A DNA stretch of 64,000 nt from Rhizobium rhododendri. Lineage in GTDB: Bacteria; Pseudomonadota; Alphaproteobacteria; Rhizobiales; Rhizobiaceae. The stretch's first letter is position 1. The number at the start of each line of letters is the position of its first letter. The position numbers were made by a program, and so were the translations under genes. Shown here piece after piece: positions 5,847 to 42,146 of the stretch. Under the pieces are notes generated by a model. That model was not told the origin of the DNA. It searched no databases and saw only the letters and a list, made by a program, of their open reading frames with translations. The stretch spans positions 1,922,001-1,986,000 of the forward strand of contig NZ_CP117267.1 in assembly GCF_007000325.2 (NCBI RefSeq), given 5' to 3'.

Positions 5847-7460
5847 ATGGCGTTTGCGATCGAGACGTTTAGGGACGTCAGTCCCAGGGCAGGAAAGGCC
5901 GGCAAGAAAGGCTCGTCCCGCGTCATGACGGTCGGCACCGTGATGATCGGCACCGGCGTGGTCGCCTTTTCCTGGGTAGTAGCCACCGCCTTCGCTCTCC
6001 AGGGCGTCGTCGGTCCCTACGCATCAGGATCTCCCATCCTGCAGAAAACCGGCCCATCGCTGGTGGCACGAGCAGCGTCGCAGCCTGTCGGCCATCCAAG
6101 CCTGCGGCTTGCGACCCTCGACCCCGCCGGCATCAACGCTCTCGCGCTCGCCAACGCCCATCGCTCGGCAATCGCTGCCGAAATGGCCGCCCTCGCCCCG
6201 AGCTACTCCGTCATTGCCAAGAGCGACCGCGTCGTACATGCACCGACCGAGATCGCCGATGCAGGCCAGTCTTCCCATGCGCTCGCAAAGTCGGGACGCC
6301 CGCTGCCTGCCGACGTCATGGCAGCCTTGAAAGTGGCGTTGGCCGCCGTGCCGGCCGGAACAGCCGATGCCGCCGCCGTCCGCACGGCAAGCGTCGATCT
6401 CGACCGCGCCGCAGCGACCAGCGAACGCGCATTGACAGCCTCGGCTCCTGCCCTCCCCGTGACCTCACGCGACGACAGGCTGGCGCTTGCCAGCGCCGCG
6501 CCGACAGGCCCTGGCTCGCAAATTCCGACACCTATGCCCAACCCGACGACGGCGGCGACAGCGTCAGCCGCAGACCGGCCTGTCCAGATGGCCATGATCG
6601 ACCCGACGCCTGCTCCCGCGCGCGACGCGACGGCCCTCGTGCCAGCACAACGCCCGCAGGCCGCCGCAAAGCCTGCCCGTCCGGCAGCCGTCTCCACCCG
6701 TGAGATCGTGCCGCAGCAGCGCCCCGCTGAAAACGACGACGGTCTTCCGTCCAGCGCCGCTGCCATGGTCGAGCCCGATGCACGGCGCGCCAACGTCGCT
6801 GTAGAACAGACCTTCGGACTGGTCATGCCGACCGCTTCCGGCGATTCGTCTGGCACGTCTTCCGCTGATGACATGCTAATGTCGAGCATTCCGCTGCCAA
6901 CCATGCGCCCGGCCCCTTCGCCGGATGCGGCAACGACGCCGGCCGCAAAGCTGACCCGCCCCTCCAAGGCGCTGCTCGCCTACGCCCGTCCTGACGATGC
7001 AGGGATGGACAACGAGCCGGCCTTCAAGGCGCCGACCTCGCTGCCGAACGCCCGCACCCGCGTTGCGATCTACGATATCTCGGCGGCCCGCGTGTACCTG
7101 CCCAATGGAGAGCAGCTTGAGGCCCATTCCGGGCTTGGCCAGATGATCGACAACCCGCGCTACGTCAACCAGAAGAACCGTGGCCCGACGCCACCGCACA
7201 CCTACGACCTGACGATGCGCGAATCGCTGTTCCACGGCGTCGAGGCGATCCGCCTCAACCCCGTCGATCCGCGCGCCATCTACGGTCGCGACGGGCTGCT
7301 GGCCCACACCTACATGCTCGGCCGTCGCGGCGATTCCAACGGCTGCGTCTCCTTCAAGGACTACCGCCGCTTCCTCGCAGCCTTCAAGCGCGGCGAAGTC
7401 AACCGTCTCCTCGTGGTTCCCCACCTCTCGGTCGCCCCCGGCCGTATCGCCTCGCGCTAA
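5847..7460 (+). CDS. DUF2778 / L,D-transpeptidase-like envelope protein (537 aa)
   Basis: A short cytoplasmic N-terminus is followed by one membrane span (about residues 27-51), then a 350-residue low-complexity Ala/Pro/Thr-rich linker, and a C-terminal DUF2778 domain (about 402-530). The domain has the YkuD-like pattern HTYMLGRRGDSNGCVSF, with His487 and Cys500 as the likely catalytic pair. Members of this fold act on peptidoglycan stem peptides. An inner-membrane-tethered enzyme reaching the wall is inferred from the long linker. The start is set at the ATG before AFAIETFRD. The gene is alone on its strand. Confidence 0.75.
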   Translation: MAFAIETFRDVSPRAGKAGKKGSSRVMTVGTVMIGTGVVAFSWVVATAFALQGVVGPYASGSPILQKTGPSLVARAASQPVGHPSLRLATLDPAGINALALANAHRSAIAAEMAALAPSYSVIAKSDRVVHAPTEIADAGQSSHALAKSGRPLPADVMAALKVALAAVPAGTADAAAVRTASVDLDRAAATSERALTASAPALPVTSRDDRLALASAAPTGPGSQIPTPMPNPTTAATASAADRPVQMAMIDPTPAPARDATALVPAQRPQAAAKPARPAAVSTREIVPQQRPAENDDGLPSSAAAMVEPDARRANVAVEQTFGLVMPTASGDSSGTSSADDMLMSSIPLPTMRPAPSPDAATTPAAKLTRPSKALLAYARPDDAGMDNEPAFKAPTSLPNARTRVAIYDISAARVYLPNGEQLEAHSGLGQMIDNPRYVNQKNRGPTPPHTYDLTMRESLFHGVEAIRLNPVDPRAIYGRDGLLAHTYMLGRRGDSNGCVSFKDYRRFLAAFKRGEVNRLLVVPHLSVAPGRIASR

Positions 7461-7628
7461 GCGCTCCGTCCCAGCCGATCCACGCGACGGCAGGGACGAC
7501 TACGTTAAGACCCGCCGGCACTTCTTTCGCATTTAATTAAACATGTCCTGATATATCTGCGATGCGCCTGTATCGAAATCCAAGTACCTGCGTTTAGATC
7601 GAGACAGAGCAACGGACAGGAGCCAGGA

Positions 7629-7997
7629 ATGGCAAGCGACAAAATGACGGTTTTGGTCGTCGAGGACGAAGCGCTGATCCGCCTCGACATCGTTTGCGCA
7701 CTCGAGGATGCTGGTTTCGAGGTTCTCGAAGCCCCGAATGTCGCAAATGCCGTGGCTGTCTTGACGGCACATCCCGAAATCTGCGCTGTTTTTACGGATG
7801 TCGATATGCCGGGATCGATGGATGGACTGAAGCTTGCAGCCGTGGTGTCGATGCAATGGCCGGACACCAAGATCATCGTCACCTCCGGTCGCTGCAACGT
7901 CCAGCCATCCGACCTGCCCGCGGCCAGCCGTTTCGTCGGCAAGCCCTACCATCCGGAAACGATCATCAACAATCTCAGCCAGATGCTGGCCGCTTAG
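7629..7997 (+). CDS. Single-domain response regulator (receiver only, 122 aa)
   Basis: The whole protein is one CheY-like receiver: acidic pair in VVEDEALI (residues 12-13), phosphoacceptor Asp57 in FTDVDMPG, the Thr/Ser switch in IIVTSG (85-86), and Lys105 in VGKPYHP. No output domain is present, so it works as a diffusible phosphate carrier or allosteric partner. The DVDMPGSMDGLKLA segment is typical of alphaproteobacterial stand-alone receivers. It faces two chemoreceptor genes across a 187-bp gap, but the histidine-kinase partner is not in the window. Confidence 0.85.
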   Translation: MASDKMTVLVVEDEALIRLDIVCALEDAGFEVLEAPNVANAVAVLTAHPEICAVFTDVDMPGSMDGLKLAAVVSMQWPDTKIIVTSGRCNVQPSDLPAASRFVGKPYHPETIINNLSQMLAA

Positions 7998-8184
7998 CAA
8001 GCACGCACCAGCGCACTGTTGGAAAGTCGAACCGACTTAATGTTGGGGCGCACACTCGCGCAGTTTGCTGCCGGGGCCTAACACACTCACATCGTGATTT
8101 GTGCCATCCTGTACGGGAGAACAGCGACCTGCGCGCGGAGGTCTTATCCACGCGCAGGCGATTGAACCCTCGTACTGTGCTTCC

Positions 8185-10035
8185 TCAGGCGCGCCGCAGC
8201 TGGCGCCTGGCGACAGGGGCAAGGTCATCCATCTCGGCATCCGCGTGGCGGAGGGTGGATGTGCGGCTGAGCTTGAAGCGGCCGACGAGTTCCGTCAGCA
8301 CGCTTGATCCGGAGAAAAGTTCGTTGCTGAGAGCTGTCGTCTCTTCGGCCATGGCGGCGTTTCTCTGTGTCATCTGGTCCAGCGCGTTGACGGCCGAACT
8401 GATTTCCTGGAGGCCCGTCGCCTGCTCGACGCTGGAGGTGGCGATGGCTTCCACCTTGGCGTCAATCTCGGAGACAAAGCCTTCGATCTTGCGCAGGGCG
8501 ATGCCGGTCTCTCCCACCAGACGGACGCCGGTCGAGACCTCGTTGGACGAGTTGACGATGAGCGCCTTGATCTCTTTTGCAGCCTTGGCCGAGCGCTGCG
8601 CCAATTCGCGCACCTCATGGGCAACGACAGCGAAGCCCTTGCCCTGATCTCCCGCCCGCGCCGCCTCTACGCCCGCGTTCAAAGCCAGCAGGTTCGTCTG
8701 GAAAGCGATTTCGTCGATGACGCCGATGATCTGCGTAATTTCTCCCGACGCCGCCTGGATGCGGTTCATGGCAGCAACCGATTCCTGCACGGTCATGATC
8801 GAGGCATGCGCGCACTGCTTGGCATCGGCAACGAGGTGACGCGTCTCGAGGCTCCGCTCCGACGAGGACCGTACGGTAGCGGTTACTTCTTCCAATGCTG
8901 CGGAGGTCTCTTCCAGCGCCGAAGCCTGCTCTTCGGTACGCTTGGAAAGGCTGTGCGCAGCCTCCTGCATCTCGGTTCCGTTGCCGTGCACCAGCCGGGT
9001 CTTCTGCAATACTTCTTCCAGCGTCGTCTGGAAGTTTGCCAGCGAATTGTTGAAGTCGGCACGCAGGGGTTCGAACTGCTCGCTGAAGCTTGAATCGATC
9101 GTCGTCTGCATGTTGCATTGGGCAAGCCGGCCAAGCCCGGCGCCAAGGGCGTCGATCACCATCTTGACTTGCCTGGATTCTTCCAGCCGCTCGGCCTCGC
9201 GACCGCGCCGCTCGGTTTCGGTCTGGGCTCTCGAGGCCTCCGCCTGATCGTGCAGGCTTCGATTTTCGAGGCCCGCCGTCCGGAAGACATTGAGCGCCGC
9301 AGACATCGCGCCGATCTCGTCGGTCCGGTCGGCGTAAGGGGCAGCCTCGTCGAGATTGCCGCCCGCCATCCTCGACATGGCTGTCGTCATTTTCGTGATC
9401 GGCCGGATCGCTCTCTGCCGGATGGTGACGAGGCCAGCCAGGAACACCACGACCGACAGGCCACCTGCACCGAGCGCCAGCGACATCAGGCTGGACGACA
9501 TGCGGGCGGTTTCCGCCTCCTGCGCTGCCGACAGCGCGTCCGACATCTTCACCAGCTTGAGGACTGCCGCCTCATGTGCGTGGAACGTGTCTTTCAGCTC
9601 CATCAGAGCCGCATGCCTGTCAACCGAGCTGTCGGTAGACAGAAAGCGCTCGTCCATGACCTTCCAGAATACGTCTCCCTTGGCGAGAACATCGTTCTCC
9701 AGCTCGTTCTTGATTCCATCAGGGAGCCCGGACGCACGCCAGTAGGCACGACGCTCGTCGTAATCCTTCCTCAGCGACCGTATCTTTCCGGCATTGACCG
9801 CATAGAGATCGGGGTTGCTGCCGATCTCGTTTGCCAGCATGTAAGATTCTATCAGGTAAAGAGGCGGCGGCAGGATGTCGGCAACCAGATCCTTGCCCTC
9901 GACGATCGACTTGTAGATCGGTCCGTTCACCTTGAGCTTCTCGATCGCATAGGTCTGAAGACCGATGGACACGAGCAGGCCGGCGCCGACGACCAGCCCG
10001 AACAGCAGCAAGGTGCGGGATAGATTGATTTTCAT
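8185..10035 (-). CDS. Methyl-accepting chemotaxis protein (616 aa)
   Basis: Membrane span 1 lies at residues 7-28, a helical periplasmic sensor follows (about 30-180), span 2 is near 184-205, then a HAMP domain (about 206-260), a helical linker, and a signalling domain with the conserved hairpin tip ([20 protein letters not shown], about 441-460, and [19 protein letters not shown]). The C-terminus ends RRQLRRA and lacks the aromatic CheR-docking pentapeptide, so adaptation would need help from a tethered receptor. The neighbouring receptor at 10377 has such a tail and the same orientation. Ligand unknown. Confidence 0.93.
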   Translation of the reverse strand: MKINLSRTLLLFGLVVGAGLLVSIGLQTYAIEKLKVNGPIYKSIVEGKDLVADILPPPLYLIESYMLANEIGSNPDLYAVNAGKIRSLRKDYDERRAYWRASGLPDGIKNELENDVLAKGDVFWKVMDERFLSTDSSVDRHAALMELKDTFHAHEAAVLKLVKMSDALSAAQEAETARMSSSLMSLALGAGGLSVVVFLAGLVTIRQRAIRPITKMTTAMSRMAGGNLDEAAPYADRTDEIGAMSAALNVFRTAGLENRSLHDQAEASRAQTETERRGREAERLEESRQVKMVIDALGAGLGRLAQCNMQTTIDSSFSEQFEPLRADFNNSLANFQTTLEEVLQKTRLVHGNGTEMQEAAHSLSKRTEEQASALEETSAALEEVTATVRSSSERSLETRHLVADAKQCAHASIMTVQESVAAMNRIQAASGEITQIIGVIDEIAFQTNLLALNAGVEAARAGDQGKGFAVVAHEVRELAQRSAKAAKEIKALIVNSSNEVSTGVRLVGETGIALRKIEGFVSEIDAKVEAIATSSVEQATGLQEISSAVNALDQMTQRNAAMAEETTALSNELFSGSSVLTELVGRFKLSRTSTLRHADAEMDDLAPVARRQLRRA

Positions 10036-10376
10036 TTAGGGAGTCCTCATTTAATCGAAGACTGGCATTCAAATCTCAATAAATTATGCACTTAGCGGCG
10101 TCCCTGGCCCCGGATCCTTAACGATTCCAGTAAATTCGCCGGCCGACGGACGGCAATGCAGCCACGCATTGAGGATCGTCCGAAAGGACTGCACGCTCCG
10201 ATATGTGAGCGTCAATACGCTGTAAACACGTGCATTTTAGCAAGAGGCAATCTTCGCGAGCGCGCCGGCCTTGATCACAGAAAGAACAACTCCGAGGCTA
10301 AAAGGGTGCTGGACGGTGGAGCAGATCGCTGCTCCACCGTCCGGTTCCGAAATCCCTTCATAAAAATGCGATGCGC
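10036..10376. other. Spacer between the two chemoreceptor genes
   Basis: This stretch holds the downstream hairpin of the 10377-12305 gene (10311-10342) and the upstream region of the 8185-10035 gene. I see no convincing open frame; a plus-strand frame at 10156-10380 has an unnatural composition. Because a stop-and-restart layout exists here, the two receptors are probably separate transcripts. Confidence 0.5.
10311..10342 (-). terminator. Strong hairpin after the second chemoreceptor gene
   Basis: A perfect 14-bp stem, GGACGGTGGAGCAG / CTGCTCCACCGTCC, with an ATCG loop. It starts 35 bases past the stop at 10377. On the minus strand it is followed by a short CCCTTTT run, so termination is likely but imperfectly canonical. 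Confidence 0.65.
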
Positions 10377-12305
10377 TTAGAACTCTTCCCAGCTAGCGCC
10401 TGAACTGCCGCCGCCTGCTGCCATCTTGCGTGGTGCGGAGAACTGCGCCGCCGGGCGGGACTGACGCGCCGGAGCAGCCATGGCCTGCGCCGTCTGCCTG
10501 AGCGCCGATGACTGCGTGTTCCTGACCCCTTCGAGCTTGAACTGGCTGACGAGTTCGAGAAGCGTATTGGCCTCGTTGGCGAGCGTATTCGACGCGGCGG
10601 TCGACTGCTCCACCATCGCGGCATTCTGCTGTGTCGTCTGGTCCATCGAGTTCACGGCCTGATTGACTTCATGGAGCCCGGTGGCCTGCTCCTTTGCAGA
10701 CGTGGCGATCGAGTCCATGTGGCCGTTAATCTCGACGATGAACTGCCCGATGGTCTTCAGGGCATCGCCGGCATCGCGCACCAGCTTCACGCCGTTTGCG
10801 ACTTCGGACGAAGAGCTGTGGATGAGACCCTTGATTTCCTTGGCTGCCTGCGCCGAACGCTGGGCAAGCTCGCGAACCTCCTGCGCTACGACGGCGAACC
10901 CCTTGCCTGCCTCGCCGGCACGGGCTGCCTCGACGCCGGCATTCAATGCCAGCAGGTTGGTCTGGAAGGCGATTTCGTCGATGACGCCGATGATGTTGGA
11001 AATCTGCTGCGACGAGGTCTCGATCTTCTCCATTGCCTCTTCGGCCCGCGAAACGACTTCAGCAGACTTTCCAGCGGACTCGTTGGCGCGAGATGCCACG
11101 TCGCGTGCATCTTCGGTGCGCTTGGCGGAGTTAGCCACGTTGACGGTGATTTCCTCGACGGCCGCAGCGGTCTCCTCGATCGCGGCAGCCTGTTGCTCCG
11201 TCCGCTTCGACAGATCGTTGGCGCCGGCTGCAATCTCGCGAGTGCCGTTGCCCATGCTGGATACGCTGGTGGTGATCGACGACAGGGCGCCGCCGAGCTG
11301 CTCGACCGACCGGTTGAAGTCGTGGCGCAAGGCATCGAAATCCGGAGAAAATGCTTCCGTCAGCTGGAAGGACAGGTCACCTGCTGCGAGGCGCTTCAGA
11401 CCATCGGCAAGACCCGAGGTTGCGATGCGCAGACGTTCGGCCGCTTCTTCTTCAGCCCGGCGCTGACCCTCGATCCGGTCGATTTCAGCTTGCCGCCTGT
11501 TGTCTTCCGCCTCGCGTTCCAGGCGATTGTTGGAAATCGCTGCCTGACGGAAGATTTCGACCGCGCCGGCCATCTGGCCGATTTCATCGGCCCGGCGGGC
11601 AAAGGGAATTTCCGAATCCGTGTCGCCTTCCGAAAGCTTGCGCATCGAGGTGTTGATGCCGGCAAGCGGACGCGAGACGTTCATTATGGCAAAGAGCGCG
11701 GAGGCAATACCAAGAAGGAGAGCAAGCCCGAGGCACGCGTATGTGACATCCGACGCAAAGGAGATGGTGTGCAACGTAGCGGCGCCTTCGTCCTTGGTGT
11801 TCATGGCGATGTCATCGACAGCTGCCTGAACGGCGTCGCCGGCCGAACTGTAGTCGGTGAGTGCCTTGCCGTAGAACAGCGCTCTCGCCTCATCCGCTTT
11901 GGCATTCTTTGCGAGATTGCCCACTTCACCCCAAGACTGCAGGCCTGCGCTCCAGTTGCGCTTCAGCGTGGCAAACAGCTCGATGTCTTCCTTGTCTACC
12001 AGAAGCGGCTCATAGGTGCGGATGTCATTCTCGACCTTATCGATTGCAGTCTTCAGTATATCTGAGAACTTCTGGCGCTGCTCCGCTGGAGCGTTCAGTA
12101 CGGCGCTTTGATAAATGCGAACATCGCCGATGTCAGCATTCATCTGCCCAAGAAGAATGAAACCCGGAATGCGCTTTTCAATAATGACATGGTTTTTCGT
12201 TTGAATAGAATCGAGAGAATAAACCGCAAAAAAACCTAATCCGGCGGTCATGGCCACAGACACCGAAAATATGCCTAAAAGCTTCGTTGCGACAGAAAGA
12301 TTCAT
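10377..12305 (-). CDS. Methyl-accepting chemotaxis protein with CheR-docking tail (642 aa)
   Basis: Span 1 lies at about residues 8-29, followed by a four-helix-bundle-type periplasmic sensor (30-180), span 2 (about 188-208) and a HAMP domain (211-265). The signalling domain carries the standard tip ([20 protein letters not shown]). The protein ends in SWEEF after a flexible Gly/Pro/Ala linker. This matches the aromatic x-W-x-x-F pentapeptide that tethers CheR or CheB in high-abundance receptors, so it can probably assist adaptation of untethered receptors such as its neighbour. A strong hairpin follows the gene. Confidence 0.95.
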
Positions 12306-17360: not shown

Positions 17361-17678
17361 TTACGAAAATTGGCGATTTGTCGCCAAAAATGCCCAAATG
17401 AAGCTTCGGGCGCTGTATCGCGATTGTTCGACAACACCCAAATCGACGGAAGCGCTCACCCGAGAGTCGTGCATAGGGATACCCTTTAGTGTGTTGTGAG
17501 CGTGGGACAACATGTAGATCTGTTCCCCATAGACCCAGACCCTCGCCACATCAAGGTCGTCATTTAGACTGCCTGGTACGCTCGAAACACTGGCCATAAG
17601 ATCCACGAGACTGGTACCCATCTTTCCGCGTCGATCGACAAGCGACGTTCTATTTTGAAGTTGCGCACGCACTTCCAT
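17361..17678 (-). CDS. Orphan open frame beside the IS3 remnant (105 aa)
   Basis: The ATG at 17678 lies a few bases from the point where the IS3-type orfB similarity ends, so this may be the remainder of a gene cut by the element rather than an intact gene. The sequence (KMGTSLVDLMASVSSVPGS, DVARVWVYGEQIYMLSHAHN) looks protein-like, but I do not recognise it. No good Shine-Dalgarno. The codon choice is less GC-rich than in neighbouring core genes. Confidence 0.3.
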   Translation of the reverse strand: MEVRAQLQNRTSLVDRRGKMGTSLVDLMASVSSVPGSLNDDLDVARVWVYGEQIYMLSHAHNTLKGIPMHDSRVSASVDLGVVEQSRYSARSFIWAFLATNRQFS

Positions 17679-17689
17679 TTGCGATAGCG

Positions 17690-18110
17690 GATCGTCTTGC
17701 GTTCGGCGGATATGATGTTGCAGGCCCGTCGTTCCGAAAGACCCATGACGGTCTTCAGATGCGTAACGGCGTCACGCTGGGCGGCGGGCCCTACCATTTT
17801 TTGCAAGAAGCTCGCGGAGTGCGGCCGCATCCAGCATCTGCTCGGCCAGCAACTTCTTTAGCCTGGCATTCTCGTCCTCAAGCGCCTTCAGCCGCTTCGC
17901 CTCGGAGACTTCCATGCCGCCGTATTTGGCCTTCCAGTTATAAAATGTTGCTTCTGAAATCCCGTGCTTGCGGCAGAGATCGGCAGCCTTCGCGCCAGCC
18001 TCCTGCTCCTTCAGCACACCGATAATCTGCTCTTCCGTAAATCTCTGCTTCTTCATTCGTCCGTCCCTTAATAGGCCGGACCCTTACCCATTATGGAGGA
18101 AATTCTCAGT
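17690..18110 (-). mobile_element. IS3-family (IS407-like) remnant
   Basis: An orfA (17772-18056) is followed, in another frame, by the first 35 or so residues of orfB (MVGPAAQRDAVTHLKTVMGL then SERRACNIISAERKTIRYR). The similarity stops abruptly near 17690, so the DDE catalytic part of orfB is missing and the element cannot transpose by itself. The upstream limit near 18110 is estimated from the usual leader length; I could not define terminal repeats. Confidence 0.75.
17772..18056 (-). pseudogene. IS3-family transposase OrfA, altered 3' end
   Basis: KKQRFTEEQIIGVLKEQEAG, then ADLCRKHGISEATFYNWKAK and a leucine-zipper region (LKALEDENARLKKLLAEQML) are typical of the OrfA DNA-binding subunit. 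Members of this group normally end in ...LLxKKW shortly after the A-run that carries the programmed frameshift. Here the run has six A and OrfA reads on as AKNGRARRPA. Loss of one A would explain this. OrfB is truncated too, so the element is dead. Confidence 0.75.
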
Positions 18111-18246
18111 GGCAGGTCAGCCGATTATCAAGGAAACTCCCGAATGGTAGCCTATCAACCAACTTGAAGAAAGCGTGTTGGCAAGTCCCGCCTATGGGTC
18201 TGGATTTTCAAATCATTTCCAAAAGGAAATATATTTTTGTCCATGT

Positions 18247-18711
18247 TTACTTACTTTCGTCGAATGGAATATATTGCTTAAAGGGCCTTTTGGAGTCGGG
18301 AGCTTCTCCGCTTGGATAGAGCAGACAATACATTTTGCTGTGATACACGACGGCTAGAGGATAACATGAGTCAGCCGCGCTCATGCCACGAGCAGAACAT
18401 ATACTGAATCCCTTCCCAATATCCTGAGATGTACATTTCTCGCCAGGACAAAAGTACTGTGTTATCCCGGTGTATCCTTTGGAAAAAAACACAACTGGCT
18501 TCGAATACATGTCCAGAGACCCAACGGTCTCGGCTAGCTTTTTGTAGGCTTTGTCGACATCACTCTTATCGCCAAAACTGAAAGTCGATGGTGTGTCGTT
18601 CGTATAGTCGAACTTAGAAACATCTGTTTCACAGTTCAGAGCGAAAGCCGGTGAGAAAGAAATGATCGCGCCGATCAGTCCGATAAAGATGATATATTGG
18701 TGTGATTTCAT
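18247..18711 (-). CDS. Exported Cys-rich protein coupled to a VgrG-like fragment (154 aa)
   Basis: The ATG at 18711 shares one base with the TGA of the upstream VgrG-like frame (TGATG), so translation is probably coupled. Residues 1-25 form a Sec signal peptide (IIFIGLIGAIISFSPAFA). The mature part has six Cys (LNCETD, YFCPGEKC, SICSARG, DSCYPL, MYCLLY), which suggests disulphides in the periplasm. I do not recognise the family. In T6SS loci such exported partners behind VgrG or effector genes are often immunity proteins or accessory factors; here that is inference from position only. Confidence 0.6.
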   Translation of the reverse strand: MKSHQYIIFIGLIGAIISFSPAFALNCETDVSKFDYTNDTPSTFSFGDKSDVDKAYKKLAETVGSLDMYSKPVVFFSKGYTGITQYFCPGEKCTSQDIGKGFSICSARGMSAADSCYPLAVVYHSKMYCLLYPSGEAPDSKRPFKQYIPFDESK

Positions 18712-19055
18712 CAATTTAGGTCAATCCTCCCACTATCAATAACGACACGCTTCTCGCCGTTTACTTCAATCTCGTCAAAATCCAGGAAAAGTTTAGTGTC
18801 TGAGATGGCGATTGAACCGTCTTCGTGCATCAAGACATTTGAATTGCCACAGGTTAGGTGAAGTTCACCGTTACTCTGCAATGCGGTGCTGTTTTGGGTC
18901 GTTAAAGAGAGTGTGTCATTGCTCATAAGGTTAATACGTGAACCTGCGTTGACGCTGTAGGACAAACCGACATTCGTCGTCATTCCTGCACCAACATTCA
19001 CTGCATTAAAAACACCCACGCTCTCGGTCTTGTTCTTCTCGACAATGACCGACAT
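18711..19055 (-). CDS. VgrG-like C-terminal fragment (114 aa)
   Basis: The repeated pattern N-K-T-E-S-V-G, N-V-G-A-G, VGLSYSVNAGSRINLMSNDT resembles the beta-helical spike region at the C-terminus of T6SS VgrG proteins (T-x-x-V-G and LSYSVxAG repeats). The rest of VgrG (gp27/gp5-like domains, about 500 residues) is absent. GAAGG precedes the ATG, so it may be expressed as a short protein. It could also be a debris fragment. No other T6SS structural gene is in the window. Confidence 0.55.
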   Translation of the reverse strand: MSVIVEKNKTESVGVFNAVNVGAGMTTNVGLSYSVNAGSRINLMSNDTLSLTTQNSTALQSNGELHLTCGNSNVLMHEDGSIAISDTKLFLDFDEIEVNGEKRVVIDSGRIDLN

Positions 19056-19072
19056 GTTACCTTCGCCCGGAT

Positions 19073-19246
19073 TCAGTATTCCGGGAAAGCCGAGTTTTTT
19101 GCCACCTCACCTATTCCGCCGGCCAAAGATGTCAACAAGGAAGTCACTATCCTACCAATGCCGCTTGGCCCCACCGTAAGCATCATGTTTCCGCCAATGA
19201 CCTCCGTGGTGATTGTTTTCCGCCTCAGTTGCACCAATCGTTGCAT
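19073..19246 (-). pseudogene. Short frame against the tRNA, possible T6SS-region debris (57 aa)
   Basis: The frame reads QRLVQLRRKTITTEVIGGNM, then MLTVGPSGIGRIVTSLL and ends at TGA 19073, 18 bp before the VgrG-like ATG. T-I-T-T-E-V-I-G-G-N looks like a beta-repeat strand of the same kind as the next frame, which suggests both are pieces of one former spike or effector gene. It begins only 43 bp past the tRNA 3' end. Expression is doubtful. Confidence 0.3.
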
Positions 19247-19288
19247 TTGTTGCAGCGACCATTGGTTTCGTCAGGACATAGAAAAATG

Positions 19289-19364
19289 TGGTGGGCCCGG
19301 AGAGACTCGAACTCCCAACCAAGCGGTTATGAGCCGCCGGCTCTAACCATTGAGCTACAGGCCC
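19289..19364 (-). tRNA. tRNA with CAU anticodon, probably tRNA-Ile2
   Basis: On the minus strand: acceptor GGGCCTG pairs with CGGGCCC, D-arm GCTCAATGGTTAGAGC, anticodon stem GGCGG/CCGCT with loop CTCATAA (anticodon CAT), T-arm GGGAG TTCGAGT CTCTC, and an encoded CCA (76 nt). The anticodon-arm and variable-loop pattern (GGCG-x-CTCATAA-x-CGCTTGGT) is that of the lysidine-modified isoleucine tRNA that reads AUA, rather than an initiator or elongator tRNA-Met. The 3' end faces the accessory patch. Confidence 0.92.
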
Positions 19365-33653: not shown

Positions 33654-35708
33654 TCAGCTGTCGAGGAACGAGCGCAGCTTGCGGCTGCGGCTTGGGTGCT
33701 TGAGCTTGCGCAGCGCCTTGGCTTCGATCTGGCGGATACGTTCGCGTGTGACCGAGAACTGCTGGCCGACTTCTTCCAGCGTGTGGTCCGTGTTCATGCC
33801 GATACCGAAGCGCATGCGAAGCACGCGTTCTTCACGCGGGGTGAGCGAGGCCAGCACCCGGGTCGTCGTTTCGCGAAGGTTCGCCTGGATGGCGGCGTCA
33901 ATCGGCAGCAGCGCGTTCTTGTCCTCGATGAAGTCGCCGAGATGGCTGTCTTCCTCGTCGCCGACAGGCGTTTCGAGCGAGATTGGCTCCTTTGCGATCT
34001 TCAGGACCTTGCGGACCTTTTCGAGCGGCATGGCGAGCTTTTCGGCCAGTTCTTCCGGCGTGGGCTCGCGGCCGATCTCGTGCAGCATCTGGCGCGATGT
34101 CCGGACGATCTTGTTGATCGTCTCGATCATGTGCACCGGAATGCGGATCGTCCGCGCCTGGTCGGCGATCGAGCGGGTGATCGCCTGGCGGATCCACCAG
34201 GTCGCATAAGTCGAGAACTTGTAGCCGCGGCGATACTCGAATTTGTCGACCGCCTTCATCAGGCCGATATTGCCTTCTTGGATAAGGTCGAGGAACTGCA
34301 GGCCACGGTTGGTGTACTTCTTGGCGATGGAAATGACGAGACGCAGATTTGCCTCGACCATTTCCTTCTTGGCGATGCGCGCCTCGCGCTCACCCTTCTG
34401 CACCATGTGGACGATGCGGCGGAATTCCGAGATGGAAATGCCGGTTTCGGTCGCAAGGCTCTGGATATCGCCCCGGATGTCGAGGATCGTCTTGGCTTCG
34501 CTCTCGGCAAACTGCTTCCAGCCGCGGCCGGTCAGGTTGGAGATGAAGGTCATCCAGTTCGGATCGAGCTCGGCACCGGAATAGTGCTCGAGAAAACTGT
34601 CGCGCTTGACGCCGTAGGATTCCGACAGGCGCAGCAGCTTGCCCTCGTTCTGCACGAGACGCTTGTTGATGTCATAAAGCTGCTCGACCAGCGCATCGAT
34701 GCGGTTCTGGTTGAGCGACAGCGACTTGACCGACTTGATGAGCTCGTCTTTCAGCTCCTTGTAGCGGCGCTCCTGGGCCGACGACAGGGCGCCGGCGGCA
34801 GCAAGACGCTGCTCGACCTGCTGGTCCTGCAGCTTGCGCAGCTTCTTGTAGGTCTCGGCAATGGTGTCGAGGGTCAGCATGACCTGCGGGCGCAGCTCGA
34901 ATTCCATCGCGGCAAGCGAAAGGCTGGACTCGTCGTCCTCCTCTTCCTCTTCCTCGCGCTGGCCTTCGCCGCCGACATTGGTGATGTCGTCGTCGCCGAA
35001 GCGTGCCTTGCGGGTCTTTTCCTTTTCCTCGGCGAGCTTACGGTCGGCCTCGATCTTCTCAGGCGACTGGAATTGCGGAGCGGCCTTTGCTTCCGGGCCG
35101 GAATAGGTGGTTTCGAGATCGATGATCTCGCGCAGCAGCGTCGTGCCCTCGTTGAGCTCGTCGCGCCAGATGATCAGCGCCTGGAAGGTCAGCGGGCTCT
35201 CGCAGAGACCGCCGATCATCGTCTCGCGACCGGCCTCGATGCGCTTGGCAATGGCGATTTCGCCCTCGCGCGACAGAAGCTCGACAGAGCCCATTTCGCG
35301 CAGGTACATGCGCACCGGATCGTCGGTGCGGTCGGTCGGCTCTTTCTTCTTGGCGGTGGCCAAGGCGGTGCCAGCCGAAGGCGCAAGCTCGCCGCCTTCG
35401 CTCTCTTCCTCGTTATTGTTGTCATCGTCGTCGGAAGAGGCCGGCGTGCCGGGCTCCTCGACGTCCTCGTCTTCCACGACGTTGATGCCCATGTCCGAGA
35501 GCATGGCCATCGTATCTTCGATCTGCTCGGAGGTGACTTCCTCGGACGGGAGGACGGCATTGAGCTCGTCCATCGTCACGTAGCCGCGCTTCTTGGCGGC
35601 CTTGATCATCTTCTTGACCGCGTCATCGGAAAGATCGAGAAGCGGGCCGTCGGAGGCGCCGTCGCGTTCGACTTCAGCTTCTTCGTTTTCTTTGACTTTG
35701 GTTGCCAT
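33654..35708 (-). CDS. rpoD: RNA polymerase primary sigma factor RpoD (684 aa)
   Basis: Region 1.1 is at the N-terminus ([20 protein letters not shown]), then an acidic low-complexity stretch ([11 protein letters not shown]), the non-conserved insert, and region 2 with [20 protein letters not shown], the -10-recognition helix [20 protein letters not shown]. Region 4 ([37 protein letters not shown]) recognises -35. Length is normal for alphaproteobacterial sigma-70. In related genomes dnaG is usually the upstream neighbour. Here more than 8 kb of other genes intervene. Confidence 0.98.
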
Positions 35709-36146
35709 CTATATAGTCGCTTTCCCTGACGCTGCCCTGCCTGCGGTTGGGCTTGAGAGCCCCGGGCAAAAAACTCGCCCGCCGCAATTGTTCACGAACA
35801 CCTACGGAATGATCTTTAATTCCGAATTAACCACGCGCGCCCAAAAGCTCAAGGCCAGACGGTTCACCTGGCGAACTGCTGGACATTTCTGCCCCATGAC
35901 GCGCGAGACCTTCTCTGCCTGAAATGGTGATTCCCACTATTTCCCTTCCCGTCAAGCTATTCCGCGAAGAATGATGCGGAAAACCCGGAAAAAGCCCGAC
36001 ATACATGGGCCGACTTGGCACGGAGGCCGGTATGGGTGGGATATGGGGAGGATTGGGGGGAAAGACAAGGGTGGGGGTGGGAGGGGTGAGGCCCTACCAT
36101 TCAGATAACTTGAAGCGCGCGCATATCGGATCGAACGGCACCGTTC
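35709..36146. other. Intergenic region upstream of rpoD with a G-rich tract
   Basis: 438 bp without a credible gene. It should hold the rpoD promoter region (35.71-35.95 kb). Between about 36030 and 36095 the plus strand carries eight or so G-runs of three or more (GGGTGGG, GGGG, GGGGGG, GGGTGGGGGTGGGAGGGG), a pattern able to form a G-quadruplex. The border with the AT-richer defence-type gene lies right after it. Confidence 0.55.
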
Positions 36147-38339
36147 TTACGTCGCGGAAAAATCCGAGAAAAGCATTTTTAGTTCCGCCGCGATCCAATC
36201 ATGCGCAAGGGTAAGCGCCGGAGTTTCACCTGTGAAGCCACCGGTCGGAGCGTAGCCATCAAACGCAGGCAATTGTCCAGACCTTGTCTCAACAGTCACA
36301 TCAGACGGCCTACCCAACTTATCCAGTCGTGACAGAACATTTTGGTAATGCCCATTAAATTCAACCCGCCGACTACTACCGATGTCAGGTCCTGAAACAG
36401 GCTGAACAACAACTTTGGGATCAGTGTAGCTTTCAACAGGAATCCACCACTGCTTCAGTTGCCAATCCCCATCTTCTGAACCATTCAATCTCAGGCACCA
36501 CTGAATTGGCCTAATTAGATATCCCTGCATTTCGTCGCGGATAGAGAGAAAACTGAATTGAACAATCTCAACAAATATTTTTTCTGCGCGCTCATATGTC
36601 TCAATAAGTGCTTCGGGCGCTTTTCCAATATCAATTCCGCCGCATTGGCCAGAATATTTTGTCCACCAAACATCAATTTGGACGTCACCAGCGTCTAGGC
36701 AGATTTGCAAGTCATCTAACAGCGCGCTGATAGCGAAATCTCTGTTGTCACTCCCGAAATCACTAACACTGACAAAACTCTCCCTTGCAGGATCGAGAGC
36801 CATCTTGATCGAAACAAGATCAATGCAGTCTCGCGGGAAATTTTCCTGCTCAACCAATATCCTCATACGAGACACTAACCGCTCTCGGGAAAGGTTAACT
36901 CCACCCTTTAACTTTCGCCCTTTAATAATATTCTTGAGGGTTTCACGTAAGACTCCGACACCGATCGCGCGGCCATCGTCTGGCTTTAATCTTGAAAGTA
37001 GGATATTTACATATCGTTGACGAAAACGGGTATCAGTCTGACCCAATGAGACCCGAGCATCATTTACTGAACGCATTTGGAACGAGTATGAGACGCTCGA
37101 CAAACGGGTGTCCAACATTCCTTCTATACCTAATCCACAATTGTTAACCCCTACTTCCTCAAGACAAATTTCATCCCATAACTCTGGAAAATAGGCTAAA
37201 CTTGTCCCCTCGAAGCCATCAAGAATGTCTTGCAACACATTTTGTTGAGCCTCCATCTCCGGAAGCTGGAATAGCATGGAAGACGCGTCGGCTCGAAATT
37301 TGAAAGCTCCAAGATATTCGCATATGCCAGACTGGCTGAGACGTTCCCACAGCGCACGTTGGTAGTGGGGATTGGGTATTTGGCCCATCAGCAACGTTGC
37401 TAACAATGAATCGTTTCGAAAGGTAGTCCGCTCGGTAGAGGTCCTAAATTCTTCTAGCGAGAGCGATGCAAGATGCTTCGCCCTTAAAAAATCCGCCAGC
37501 GCCTCATGTACAAGCTCGACATTGCTCTGCGAAATGTTAAGCGCATCAGATTGCACCAACGCATTAAAAATCTCCTCATCGAAACCAGCTTTTATTAACA
37601 TACCAAAGGCGGCTATGTTTGAAAGTGGCTCGACAAGGCTCTGCTGCGCAAGCAAAAGCAGGGCTGCTTCACGCCGCACACGTATTGCAGGCGACCCATC
37701 CGACCATCCCAAAAACTTTGTCAGCCAGTCATCAAAGAGCTTTGTTAGTGTTTCTGGGCGACTTCCAAATTTGCTGTAGTGTTCACAGATTAACCTGAGG
37801 AATAAAGGGTGCCCCAACCGAGCATTGAGCGCCTTCGGCAAATCCCACGATATATTGTGAGCTATTCCTGAAATTATGCCCTTCTGGAACTCTTGTCTTT
37901 GTTCGTAGTCCAGCTCCTTAAGTCTGACCGCGGGGAGGTAGACATCAGCCGTAGCGGATGGACGTGAAAAGACGAATAGGACAACTTTCGGAAAGTCGCG
38001 TCGAATGGCAGAAATTTCTGCGGCAATGTGTGCTCTACGTGAACTCTGGACTCTCTCTAACCCATCGCAGAATATTATCGCGCCATCCTGCCTACAGACA
38101 TCCCGCCATTTAGAATCTGTAATATGTGGACAATGCGCATTGATCCGCTCATGGGCATATTTGAAAATAGAGATCCCTTCTGCCACCAACTCTACTAAGG
38201 GAACTTCAACTGGAATTTTATTACTGGCAGATTTAGAATAAGATCCGACGGCAACATGAAAAAGATGCTCACATAGCTGAGTTTTGCCGAATCCGGATGG
38301 TCCGGTTATTAAAGCGCCCTTAGGAAATTCTGCTTGCAA
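36147..38339 (-). pseudogene. NACHT/STAND ATPase part of an IS-interrupted nuclease-STAND gene
   Basis: A 730-codon frame that begins (TTG) inside a domain. Walker A is GPSGFGKT (residues 13-20), Walker B with the NACHT-like D-G-L-E is AIIFCDGLE (87-95), and the sensor strand VVLFVFSRPS carries the usual Arg. A winged-helix-like region follows (SNVELVHEALADFLRAKHL), then about 450 residues I cannot assign; they may be the target-sensing part. Upstream the frame is open to the IS630 end at 38376, and joining across the element restores one frame with the nuclease at 39525-40117. Codon use is AT-richer than in neighbours. Alone it lacks the effector domain. Confidence 0.85.
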
Positions 38340-38373
38340 CTCGGCGCTTGAAATTGTCGGCAGATCCTGTCCC

Positions 38374-39468
38374 CTAGTGGATGGAATCTAACGCTTGGTG
38401 CCCGCGTTTAACGGCGGCGATGATTTTGTCGGGATCGGCGGTCCAAGTGAAGGGCTTTGGCTTTTTGTTGTGCTCAACGAGGAAACGGTTGATGGCGGCC
38501 TGGAGATCGACGACGGAATGGAAAACGCCGCGTTTCAGACGCCGCTTCGACAGCCTGGCGAAGAAACCCTCCACCGCGTTGAGCCATGAGCTTGAAGTCG
38601 GAGTGAAGTGGAAGGTGAAACGCTCGTGACGGTCGAGCCAGGCTCTCACCTTGGGATGCTTGTGGGCAGCATAGTTGTCGAGGATGACGTGGACGGCCTT
38701 GTCGTCCGGCACCTGGGCGTTAATGGCGTTGAGGAAGCGGATGAACTCCTGATGACGATGACGCTGCATGTTGCGGCCGATGACGGTGCCGTCGAGCACG
38801 TTGAGGGCGGCAAACAGCGTGGTTGTGCCGTGCCGCTTGTAGTCGTGGGTCATGGTGCCGAGCCGACCCTTCTTCATCGGCAGGCCCGGCTGGGTGCGGT
38901 CGAGCGCCTGGATTTGGCTTTTCTCATCGACCGACAACACGACGGCGTGGGCTGGCGGATCAACATAGAGGCCGACAACGTCTCGCAGCTTGTCGACGAA
39001 TTTCGGGTCGTTGGACAATTTGAACTGCCGCCACCGATGAGGTGCGAGGCCATGCGCTTTCCAGATACGCCTGACTGCGCTGGCGCTGATGCCGGCGGCC
39101 GTCGCCATCATGTCGGCCGTCCAGTGCGTCGTCTCGCCCGGCGGATCAGCCAGCGTCAGGGCCACCACACGCTCGGCGACATCGGGTCCGAGCCGCACAA
39201 TACGCGACGGCCGCGTCTTGTCGCGCAGGAGACCCTCGACGCCTTCTGTGGCGAAGCGCTCTTGCCAGCGCCATACGCAGGTCTTCGATTTGCCGGTCTG
39301 GCGCATAATCTCGACAGTTCCGACGCCATCGGCACTCAGCAGGATGATCTCGGCCCGCCAGACGTGCTTTTGGGGCGCATTGCGATCCCTGGTCAAGGCC
39401 ATCAGGCGTTGGTGATCTGTTGGCGAAACGGTGAACGATATTCCTGTGCGCATGCGCCAGACTCGCAT
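38374..39468 (-). CDS. IS630-family transposase (364 aa)
   Basis: An N-terminal HTH (RAEIILLSADGVGTVEIMRQ, TGKSKTCVWRWQERFATEGV) is followed by a DDE catalytic core: Asp181 in VVLSVDEKSQ, Asp264 in HVILDNYAAHK and Glu300 in SWLNAVEGFF, with 35 residues between the last two. All catalytic residues are present and the frame is intact, so the element may be active. The stop codon TAG is formed by the duplicated target TA plus the next chromosomal G. Confidence 0.95.
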   Translation of the reverse strand: MRVWRMRTGISFTVSPTDHQRLMALTRDRNAPQKHVWRAEIILLSADGVGTVEIMRQTGKSKTCVWRWQERFATEGVEGLLRDKTRPSRIVRLGPDVAERVVALTLADPPGETTHWTADMMATAAGISASAVRRIWKAHGLAPHRWRQFKLSNDPKFVDKLRDVVGLYVDPPAHAVVLSVDEKSQIQALDRTQPGLPMKKGRLGTMTHDYKRHGTTTLFAALNVLDGTVIGRNMQRHRHQEFIRFLNAINAQVPDDKAVHVILDNYAAHKHPKVRAWLDRHERFTFHFTPTSSSWLNAVEGFFARLSKRRLKRGVFHSVVDLQAAINRFLVEHNKKPKPFTWTADPDKIIAAVKRGHQALDSIH

Positions 39469-39522
39469 GCCAACCCAGCAAATGGAATCCCATACAGGAC
39501 TCTTATGTCAGGCGGTAACCAC
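38377..39522 (-). mobile_element. IS630-family insertion sequence (1146 bp) with TA target duplication
   Basis: Both borders carry TA (38375-38376 and 39523-39524), the target duplication of IS630/Tc1-type elements. Both ends begin GTGG when read inward, but no longer terminal repeat is visible by eye. Removing the element plus one TA rejoins the flanking frames exactly (2823 bp, 941 codons). This defines the insertion site inside the nuclease-STAND gene and indicates a recent event. Confidence 0.9.
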
Positions 39523-40117
39523 TAGCTAATGACCGTTGAACAAATCGCTTCGGAGGATTTGTCCTATCGATCTCTGCCGCAATGTAAGCCGCCATTTCAC
39601 CCGCAGCGGTGGCAAAATCCTTTCCCCACAGTCCCTGACAATGTGATATAGCGGCCTGACGCGATATCAATGCCTCAACATCACCGCGCCGTAAGGCCAG
39701 TTCAGTTACGCTGCATGTAAACACCAGACTGTTTTCAGCGGACAATTGCTGCTGCCATATTTCAAACTTGAGGCCGTTTGTAATAATAATGAAGGGTGTT
39801 CGAAGCACTCGAGCGTAAGATTCTACCTGCTGAAAAGCACCCTTTATATCTTTACTTGGGCGCTTCGCCTCAATGACAGCAAGGGAGGTATTTTCGTCTT
39901 TTATTGGACCGCAATATACGACGAAATCCGCTTCAAACGGCCGCCCCTTTTTTACTTGCCCCTGATGAAATTCGACACTTTTTTTTGGAACTATGTCATC
40001 ATCTTTGTCGTACCCCAGCGCATGCAACAATGGAGTTACTAGCCGAGATTCGACAACGGCCTCGGTGTCATCCGGATCAAAAATGATAGCTCCAACCGAA
40101 CTCCAGAAGTCGTTCAT
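39503..40117 (-). pseudogene. HsdR_N-like nuclease domain, 5' part of the interrupted gene
   Basis: The ATG at 40117 (MNDFWSSVGAIIF) is chosen over a longer frame that would overlap recQ. The domain resembles the N-terminus of type I restriction HsdR subunits, a PD-(D/E)xK nuclease: Glu23 in EAVVESRLVTPLL, Asp64 in PFEADFVVYC, Glu83-x-Lys85 in LAVIEAKRP, then FQQVESYARVL and FIIITNGLKFEIW. From about residue 198 the frame reads into the IS and stops at 39503. The original protein continued into the STAND ATPase. It starts 35 bp after recQ ends and may share its transcript. Confidence 0.88.
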
Positions 40118-40151
40118 AGACAGACCCAAAACACCAGCATCATCCCCCCAA

Positions 40152-42146
40152 TCACCCCCGCCCAATCACCGCCAAAAACGCATCCCCATAGCGCTCCAGC
40201 TTCGCCTGCCCCACGCCCGAGATCGCCAGCATCTCGTCCGCACTGCCCGGCCGTTCGCTGGCCATGGCGATCAGCGTCGTGTCCGGAAACACGACATAGG
40301 GCGGCACGCCCAGCGTCTTGGCGATCTTCATGCGCTCGGCCCTCAATTCCTCGAACAGCGCCGCATCCGCTGCCGACAGGCCGGCCGTCCTCGGCGCGCC
40401 GCCGCTTGCAGCGCTCGCGCCGGCACCGCGCCTCGCGGACTTGGCCGTGGCCGGGCGATCCTTGCGGAACTGGATGCTGCGTTCCTTCTTGAACACGGCC
40501 TTGGCATCCGGCGTCAGCTTCAGCGCGCCATAGGCGGTATGATCGACGCTGACGAGGCCGGCGGCGAGAAGCTGGCGGAAGACGGATTGCCAGGTGCGGA
40601 CGGGGATGTCCTTTCCGACGCCGAAGACCGGCATGTCGGCATGGCCGAAGCGCTGGGTCTTCTCGTTGACATTGCCTGTGAGCACATCGATGACGTGGCC
40701 GGCGCCAAAGCGTTCGCCGGTGCGGTAGATGGCGGCCAGCGCCTTGATCGCCGCCTCCGTGCCGTCCCAGGTTTCCACCGGCTTCAGGCAGGTGTCGCAA
40801 TTGCCGCAGTTCCCCGCATGGCTCTCGCCGAAATGGGCAAGAATCGCCTGGCGGCGGCAGCCGGAGGTCTCGCAGATGGCGAGCAGCGCGTTGAGCTTGG
40901 CGCGCTCCACCCGCTTGATTTCGGGGGCCGACGCGCCTTCGTCGATCATCTTGCCGCGCTGGATGACGTCGGCCATGCCATAGGCCATCCAGACGTTGGA
41001 CGGCAGGCCATCGCGGCCGGCGCGTCCCGTTTCCTGATAATAGGCCTCGACGGAGCCCGGGATGTCGAGATGGGCGACATAGCGCACGTTCGGTTTGTCG
41101 ATGCCCATGCCGAAGGCGACCGTGGCGACAAGGCAGAGGTCTTCCTCCTTCAAAAATGCATCCTGGTTGGCATCGCGCACCGCCCGGTCCATGCCGGCGT
41201 GATAGGCGAGTGCCCTGATGCCCTGCCCGTTCAGCCATTCGGCGGTGTCTTCGACCTTGGCGCGCGACAGGCAGTAGACGATGCCGCTGTCGCCCTTGTG
41301 GCCGGAGAGAAAGCGCAGCAGCTGCTGGCGCGGCTGGTCGCGCTCGACGATCTCGTAGGCGATGTTGGGGCGGTCGAAGCTGGTGGAGAAGATTTTTGCG
41401 GTGTCGAGCTGCAGCCGGGCGATGATGTCGTCGCGGGTGTGAGGATCGGCCGTCGCCGTCAGCGCGATGCGCGGCACGCCCGGAAACTGTTCGGCGAGCT
41501 TGCCGAGTTCGCGGTATTCCGGCCGGAAATCATGGCCCCACTGCGACACACAATGGGCCTCGTCGATGGCAAACAGCGCAATCTTCGCGTCACCGATGGT
41601 CTGACGGAAATTGTCGGTAAGGATGCGCTCGGGCGTCATGTAGAGCAGTTCGAGCGTGCCGTTGCGGATGTCGCGATAGATGGCTTGCGCCTCTTCGCGG
41701 GTGATCGACGAATTCAACGCTGCCGCGTTGACACCCAGCTGCTTCAGCGCCTGCACCTGGTCGCGCATCAGCGCAATCAGCGGCGAGACGACAATGCCAA
41801 TGCCGTTGCGGCAGAGCGCCGGGATCTGGAAGCACAGCGACTTGCCGGCGCCGGTCGGAAACAACACGACCGCATCGCCGCCGGAAACGACGTGCTCGAC
41901 CACCTGCTGCTGCTTGCCGCGAAAGGCCGGATAGCCATAGATCCGCTTCAGCACATCGAGCGGCGCCTGCCCGGCGGACGACCTCGGTAACGCCCGCGAG
42001 GTGTGCGGCTCTGGCGCAGCGTACGGCTCGCCGTAGGGCTCCCATCCGGCCGCTTGATCCGGCTCGAAGACATCCCTCGGCGGTTCGAGGCCAAACAACG
42101 CCTCGTCGGTGGAAAACCGTGGATCGTTCTTCTCCGGCTTCGACAT
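40152..42146 (-). CDS. recQ: ATP-dependent DNA helicase RecQ (664 aa)
   Basis: A superfamily 2 helicase that unwinds DNA 3'-5' in recombination and fork repair. After a 60-residue variable N-terminus come [17 protein letters not shown] (Walker A), [18 protein letters not shown] (Walker B and aromatic loop), [15 protein letters not shown], and the arginine finger region [12 protein letters not shown]. The RecQ zinc site uses the Cys in ICETSGCRR and CGNCDTC. A winged helix and a C-terminal HRDC domain ([18 protein letters not shown], ending in [12 protein letters not shown]) complete it. The interrupted defence-type gene follows. Confidence 0.96.

Follow-up and report, generated by a model that had tools for sequence, protein, structure and literature searches.

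A candidate bacterial NLR-like gene split by an IS630 element in a likely exchange slot between recQ and rpoD of Rhizobium rhododendri

The locus we investigated lies in a stretch of 64,000 nucleotides from Rhizobium rhododendri (contig NZ_CP117267.1, positions 1,922,001 to 1,986,000), hereafter called the window. Between recQ and rpoD, two reading frames flank an insertion sequence (IS) of the IS630 family (Table 1; the gene names recQ, rpoD, kbl and tdh were assigned by reading of the sequences). An earlier note on this DNA proposed that the two frames are parts of a single gene, disrupted by the IS, and a natural allele bears this out. Chromosome 1 of Rhizobium sp. L51/94 (record L003), a strain that falls in the R. 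rhododendri clade (PMC10064268), is collinear with the window on both sides of the insertion, with L003 1-8599 aligning to window 48117-39519 at 99.99% and L003 8593-18811 to window 38377-28157 at 99.91%, and does not contain the IS. The window has a TA on both sides of the IS and L003 a single TA at the matching position. In L003 both parts lie in one open reading frame (ORF) running from an ATG at 8001 to a stop at 10823; its 2823 bp (941 codons including the stop, 940 residues) are the length that the note had obtained by joining the two pieces.

The window pieces also align as head and tail of the homologues P0002, P0003 and P0004, to which the long piece is 91%, 55% and 48% identical, respectively. 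Two separate genes in other genomes, which the note had named as speaking against a join, were found in none of the 15 full-length homologues: all carry both parts in one frame. The window gene pieces are one gene disrupted by IS630. The insertion is probably recent, because the genome holds four further copies of the element (five in total, 99-100% identity). In the window strain the insertion falls within the linker that joins the nuclease to the NACHT module, and so uncouples the sensor from the effector. The frame of the nuclease piece remains open from its ATG to a stop at 39503 (minus strand), inside the IS; the most that could be made is a nuclease domain on its own and, separate from it, a NACHT-sensor part. 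In the homologue P0002, about 42 linker residues are missing immediately before the position of the window IS.

Table 1. Features of the recQ-rpoD slot and its flanks, in window coordinates.
Feature	Position	Strand	Remarks
recQ	40152..42146	-	upstream flank of slot; match in 36/41 genomes at E 1e-100
N-terminal nuclease piece and linker	39523..40117	-	ATG 40117; HSDR_N_2 PF13588, E 3.7e-10, above cutoff
IS630-family insertion	38375..39522	-	one TA copy counted in; absent at matching L003 position
IS630 transposase ORF	38374-39468	-	NCBIfam transpos_IS630 NF033545, E 7.4e-81
Long ORF, NACHT piece	36147-38339	-	open reading frame
NACHT ATPase module	37458..38357	-	Walker A GPSGFGKT 38303-38280; CDGLE; FSRPS; winged-helix end HEALADFLRA
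C-terminal region after NACHT module	36147..37457	-	
rpoD	33654..35708	-	downstream flank of slot; match in 39/41 genomes at E 1e-100

The N-terminal piece carries the signature of a PD-(D/E)xK nuclease of the HsdR_N type, with the residues Glu23, Asp64 and Glu83-x-Lys85 read earlier and, in addition, Gln97-x3-Tyr101. The direct fusion of this nuclease to a NACHT-like ATPase, also proposed at that time, recurs throughout an alignment of 14 rows (13 of the 15 full-length homologues, without P0010 and P0011, plus the partial P0006): every row matches both HSDR_N_2 and NACHT with E values of 0.1 or lower. Invariant in all 14 rows are E19, E23, D64, E83, K85, Q97 and Y101 of the nuclease part, as well as S225, G228-K229-T230, D302, S335, R336, H488 and D493. 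For the long piece of the window itself, the match to the NACHT model is weak (E 0.0012, short of the cutoff). The C-terminal region, left unassigned by the note, has no match to any Pfam domain, TPR included; in the predicted model it has an alpha/beta build.

A PDB sequence search at E 0.1 returned four matches, the best of which is the HsdR fragment 3h1t (E 6.9e-4). When the predicted model was compared with solved structures using Foldseek, 34 chains of NLR entries ranked above Avs4 (8dgf; rank 35, E 8.6e-7, 906 alignment columns). As modelled, the NACHT module appears to resemble animal NLRs more than Avs, with Avs4 the weaker structural match, and because of this resemblance we place the protein in the bacterial NLR-related (bNACHT) class. 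It has a central NACHT module with Walker A/B motifs and a winged helix, and effector, NACHT module and C-terminal sensor lie in one chain in all 15 full-length homologues, L003 included; the C-terminus may be called a sensor by analogy.

The family is rare. Its full-length, single-frame members are L003, P0002, P0003, P0004, P0007-P0011, L002, L004, L005, L008, L037 and L038; among these, P0009 comes from Herbaspirillum, L002 from genome G023, L004 from Brucella rhizosphaerae, L005 from Bosea and L008 from genome G375, and L037 and L038 are coding sequences on plasmids of Phaeobacter inhibens and Agrobacterium fabrum, respectively. P0005 and P0006 are partial, and P0001 is the window's own piece. 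A single pattern-limited scan over 84,980 species genomes yielded four confirmed loci, of which one, L006 from Ruegeria, matches along just a short stretch. Family members occur in 3 of 148 congeners at E 1e-20. In the order sample, 34 of 397 genomes match at a loose E 0.001, over the whole length only in the own genome and G375; at E 1e-15, the own genome is the single match among the 385 genomes of the class sample, and 2 of 398 match in the phylum sample, one of these in part and to NACHT only. Among plasmids, six records match along most of the protein, and one more, from Deinococcus, in the nuclease domain only.

The earlier note placed the gene between recQ and rpoD, which is correct but understates the position, since the site normally holds kbl and tdh and resembles an exchange slot. 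In all 24 same-genus genomes for which the interval was fetched, kbl and tdh lie between recQ and rpoD (presence of tdh was judged in these intervals, whereas the genus-wide survey covered kbl). At E 1e-120, kbl is found in 145 of 148 congeners; those without it are the window genome, G469, which belongs to the same species and carries an intact allele of the gene, and G536. The best remaining kbl-like matches in G000 and G469 are 35% identical, the tdh-like ones at most 33%. G536, probably R. tumorigenes, is close to the window in the flanking genes (rpoD 99%, recQ 98% identical) and is not among the three congeners with a family member; its DNA similarity to the window ends at two points, the recQ stop (40152) and, towards rpoD, a position near 36095. 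Its slot holds a gene at 43.9% GC (L079:2934-4745) for a DUF4365-TPR protein of 603 residues, and neither half of the family gene, nor kbl, nor tdh was found in this stretch. We take DUF4365 to be a nuclease-like domain; in PADLOC, the protein gives a weak match to the restriction endonuclease (REase) part of an Argonaute-associated system. The interval (window 36095-40152) is likely an exchange slot, occupied by kbl-tdh in 24 congeners, by the NLR-like gene in the window strain and L51/94, and by the DUF4365-TPR gene in G536. The gene is also AT-richer than its surroundings, as noted before, the two pieces having a GC content of 0.476 and 0.471 versus 0.612 for rpoD and 0.656 for recQ.

Five of the seven family loci inspected with their flanks have defence-type neighbours. 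In G023 (L048), a retron-XI reverse transcriptase (RT)-protease at 6933-8549 (model positions 6-508 of 510) lies 189 bp upstream of the family member at 8739-11618; a functional link between the two is conceivable, because nuclease-protease pairs are a known theme in defence (PMC12799240). The G375 locus (L049) contains AbiEi (2-201 of 201) and AbiEii (4-285 of 299), as well as a SIR2_2 protein whose match to Dsr1 is confined to the first fifth of that model. On the Phaeobacter plasmid (L037), a SIR2 gene (40-410 of 414) overlaps the family gene by 4 bp and DRT5 (6-492 of 493) is present; by our own reading, TnsA/TniQ-type transposition genes nearby mark a Tn7-like element. At L037:15815-17647, a single HerA model is spread over two neighbouring annotated ORFs, each of which matches one half of it. 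The Agrobacterium plasmid (L038) carries Helicase (26-683 of 707) and DUF2290 (29-183 of 195), and its annotated SIR2 protein has no PADLOC match. In Brucella (L004), PDC-M01A and PDC-M01B match nearly whole, with an integrase upstream. The association of the family with defence genes is suggestive and not a statistic.

Taking these observations together, we consider it probable that the gene encodes a single-gene, bNACHT-like conflict protein that was acquired horizontally in place of kbl-tdh, cuts DNA when triggered by infection, and was recently split by IS630 in the window strain. The unbroken protein would be kept inactive by its C-terminal domain until an infection cue appears, which may be a product of the phage or a host protein that has been disturbed. 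ATP binding and oligomerisation of the NACHT module would follow and draw the N-terminal HsdR_N domains together; DNA would be cut and phage growth stopped, probably with the loss of the cell itself. This sequence of trigger, oligomerisation and DNA cutting is expected because of the analogy with bNACHT25 and bNACHT32, whose PD-(D/E)XK domain is required for protection and degrades DNA upon activation (PMC12169576). DS-8, a NACHT protein with a metallophosphatase, is antiphage by experiment (PMC13092281). The gene would have arrived between recQ and rpoD by horizontal transfer, replacing kbl-tdh; in the window strain, an IS630 copy has since cut it in the nuclease-NACHT linker.

Several observations weigh against a defence role of this kind. 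The window gene stands alone among housekeeping genes, and two of the seven loci (L003 and L005) have, by reading, only housekeeping-type neighbours. In a PADLOC control, 5 of 10 housekeeping-type proteins match at 1e-10, the window RecQ and RpoD among them; because the control RecQ matches nearly the whole DpdF model, whole-length matches of neighbours are no proof of defence. In PADLOC, the family proteins themselves match only restriction/methylase-type and mads models, their C-terminus shows no recognised sensor fold, and the distant P0010 and P0011, inspected by eye outside the alignment, have GKS for GKT and no SR pair.

The defence-type reading of the earlier note is consistent with the company of several relatives, whereas its Avs label finds no support. 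Membership in Avs (AVAST), in which a nuclease-STAND-sensor protein would directly bind a conserved phage protein such as the portal or terminase, would account for the same three-part order and for the Foldseek match to Avs4. However, the seven PADLOC families listed at E 0.01 for 14 members include no Avs model, no Avs chain is among the four PDB sequence matches, the NLR chains rank higher in Foldseek, and the C-terminus, with no TPR match and an alpha/beta build in the model, appears to differ from the TPR-like sensors of Avs proteins. We regard this explanation as unlikely.

A restriction-like system, in which an HsdR-derived nuclease and ATPase cut unmodified DNA directly and without an NLR-like trigger, is suggested by the HsdR_N domain with its catalytic residues and by the match to 3h1t; however, the ATPase is a NACHT module and not a superfamily 2 (SF2) helicase. 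At E 0.1 the L003 allele matches no helicase family, and a DEAD match in one other member (E 0.055) is taken for a P-loop cross-match. No methylase or specificity gene was seen by reading among the ORFs at 35.0-41.5 kb of the window, where no methylase model was run, nor does the annotation of L037 and L038 show one. We regard direct restriction as very unlikely. The least probable alternative is a STAND regulator of another conflict or of a mobile element, acting for example in plasmid exclusion or in the control of gene transfer agent release, rather than as a phage sensor. Relatives do occur on plasmids and beside integrase or transposase genes, and a CARD-NLR-like system of Caulobacter controls gene transfer agent release (PMC13236601); however, that system, as described there, comprises several genes including peptidases, and the company of the present family is of the antiphage type.

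Going beyond the bNACHT-like reading, we tentatively propose, with somewhat more doubt than confidence, that these proteins form an undescribed family of bacterial NLRs in which an HsdR-type DNase is the fixed effector and the C-terminus is an alpha/beta sensor whose fold is unseen in solved structures. The gene would reside in a single-gene recQ-rpoD slot into which different members of the R. tumorigenes clade put unrelated defence genes, giving up the kbl-tdh threonine pathway in return. Few of the triggers of bacterial NLRs are known. Being compact, having one constant effector with DNA cutting as a possible readout, and lacking a TPR or other Pfam match in the C-terminus, the family would be well suited to the search for a new trigger, and the same-species pair of intact and IS-broken strains, together with the close relative carrying another slot gene, is ready for a comparison of phage sensitivity. 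Elsewhere in the window, an AT-rich stretch (17361-19364; GC 0.449 at 18001-19000) lies beside tRNA-Met and is possibly island debris, with an IS3-like orfA by our own reading and two small ORFs.

Among known systems, the gene is best seen as a variant of the bacterial NLR-type defence candidates, to which the likely exchange slot is an added finding. Compared by description, bNACHT25 and bNACHT32 (clade 6) likewise combine an N-terminal PD-(D/E)XK DNase, a central NACHT module and a C-terminal sensing part in a single gene; theirs is a helical NCH1 C-terminal domain (PMC12169576), whereas the present family has an HsdR_N-type effector and no Pfam match in the C-terminus. The nuclease-STAND single-gene system of PMC9122126 has the same architecture with C-terminal repeats as described there, and none were matched here. 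Type I restriction HsdR (EcoAI/FtnUII type; 3h1t) shares the N-terminal nuclease domain; no helicase motor was found in the L003 allele, and no HsdM/HsdS partner was seen at the window locus or in L037 and L038. Avs4 (AVAST type 4) shares the order of nuclease, STAND ATPase and C-terminal sensor, but with 1541 residues versus 940 it is much the larger protein, and its structure is a poorer match to the modelled NACHT module than those of the NLRs.
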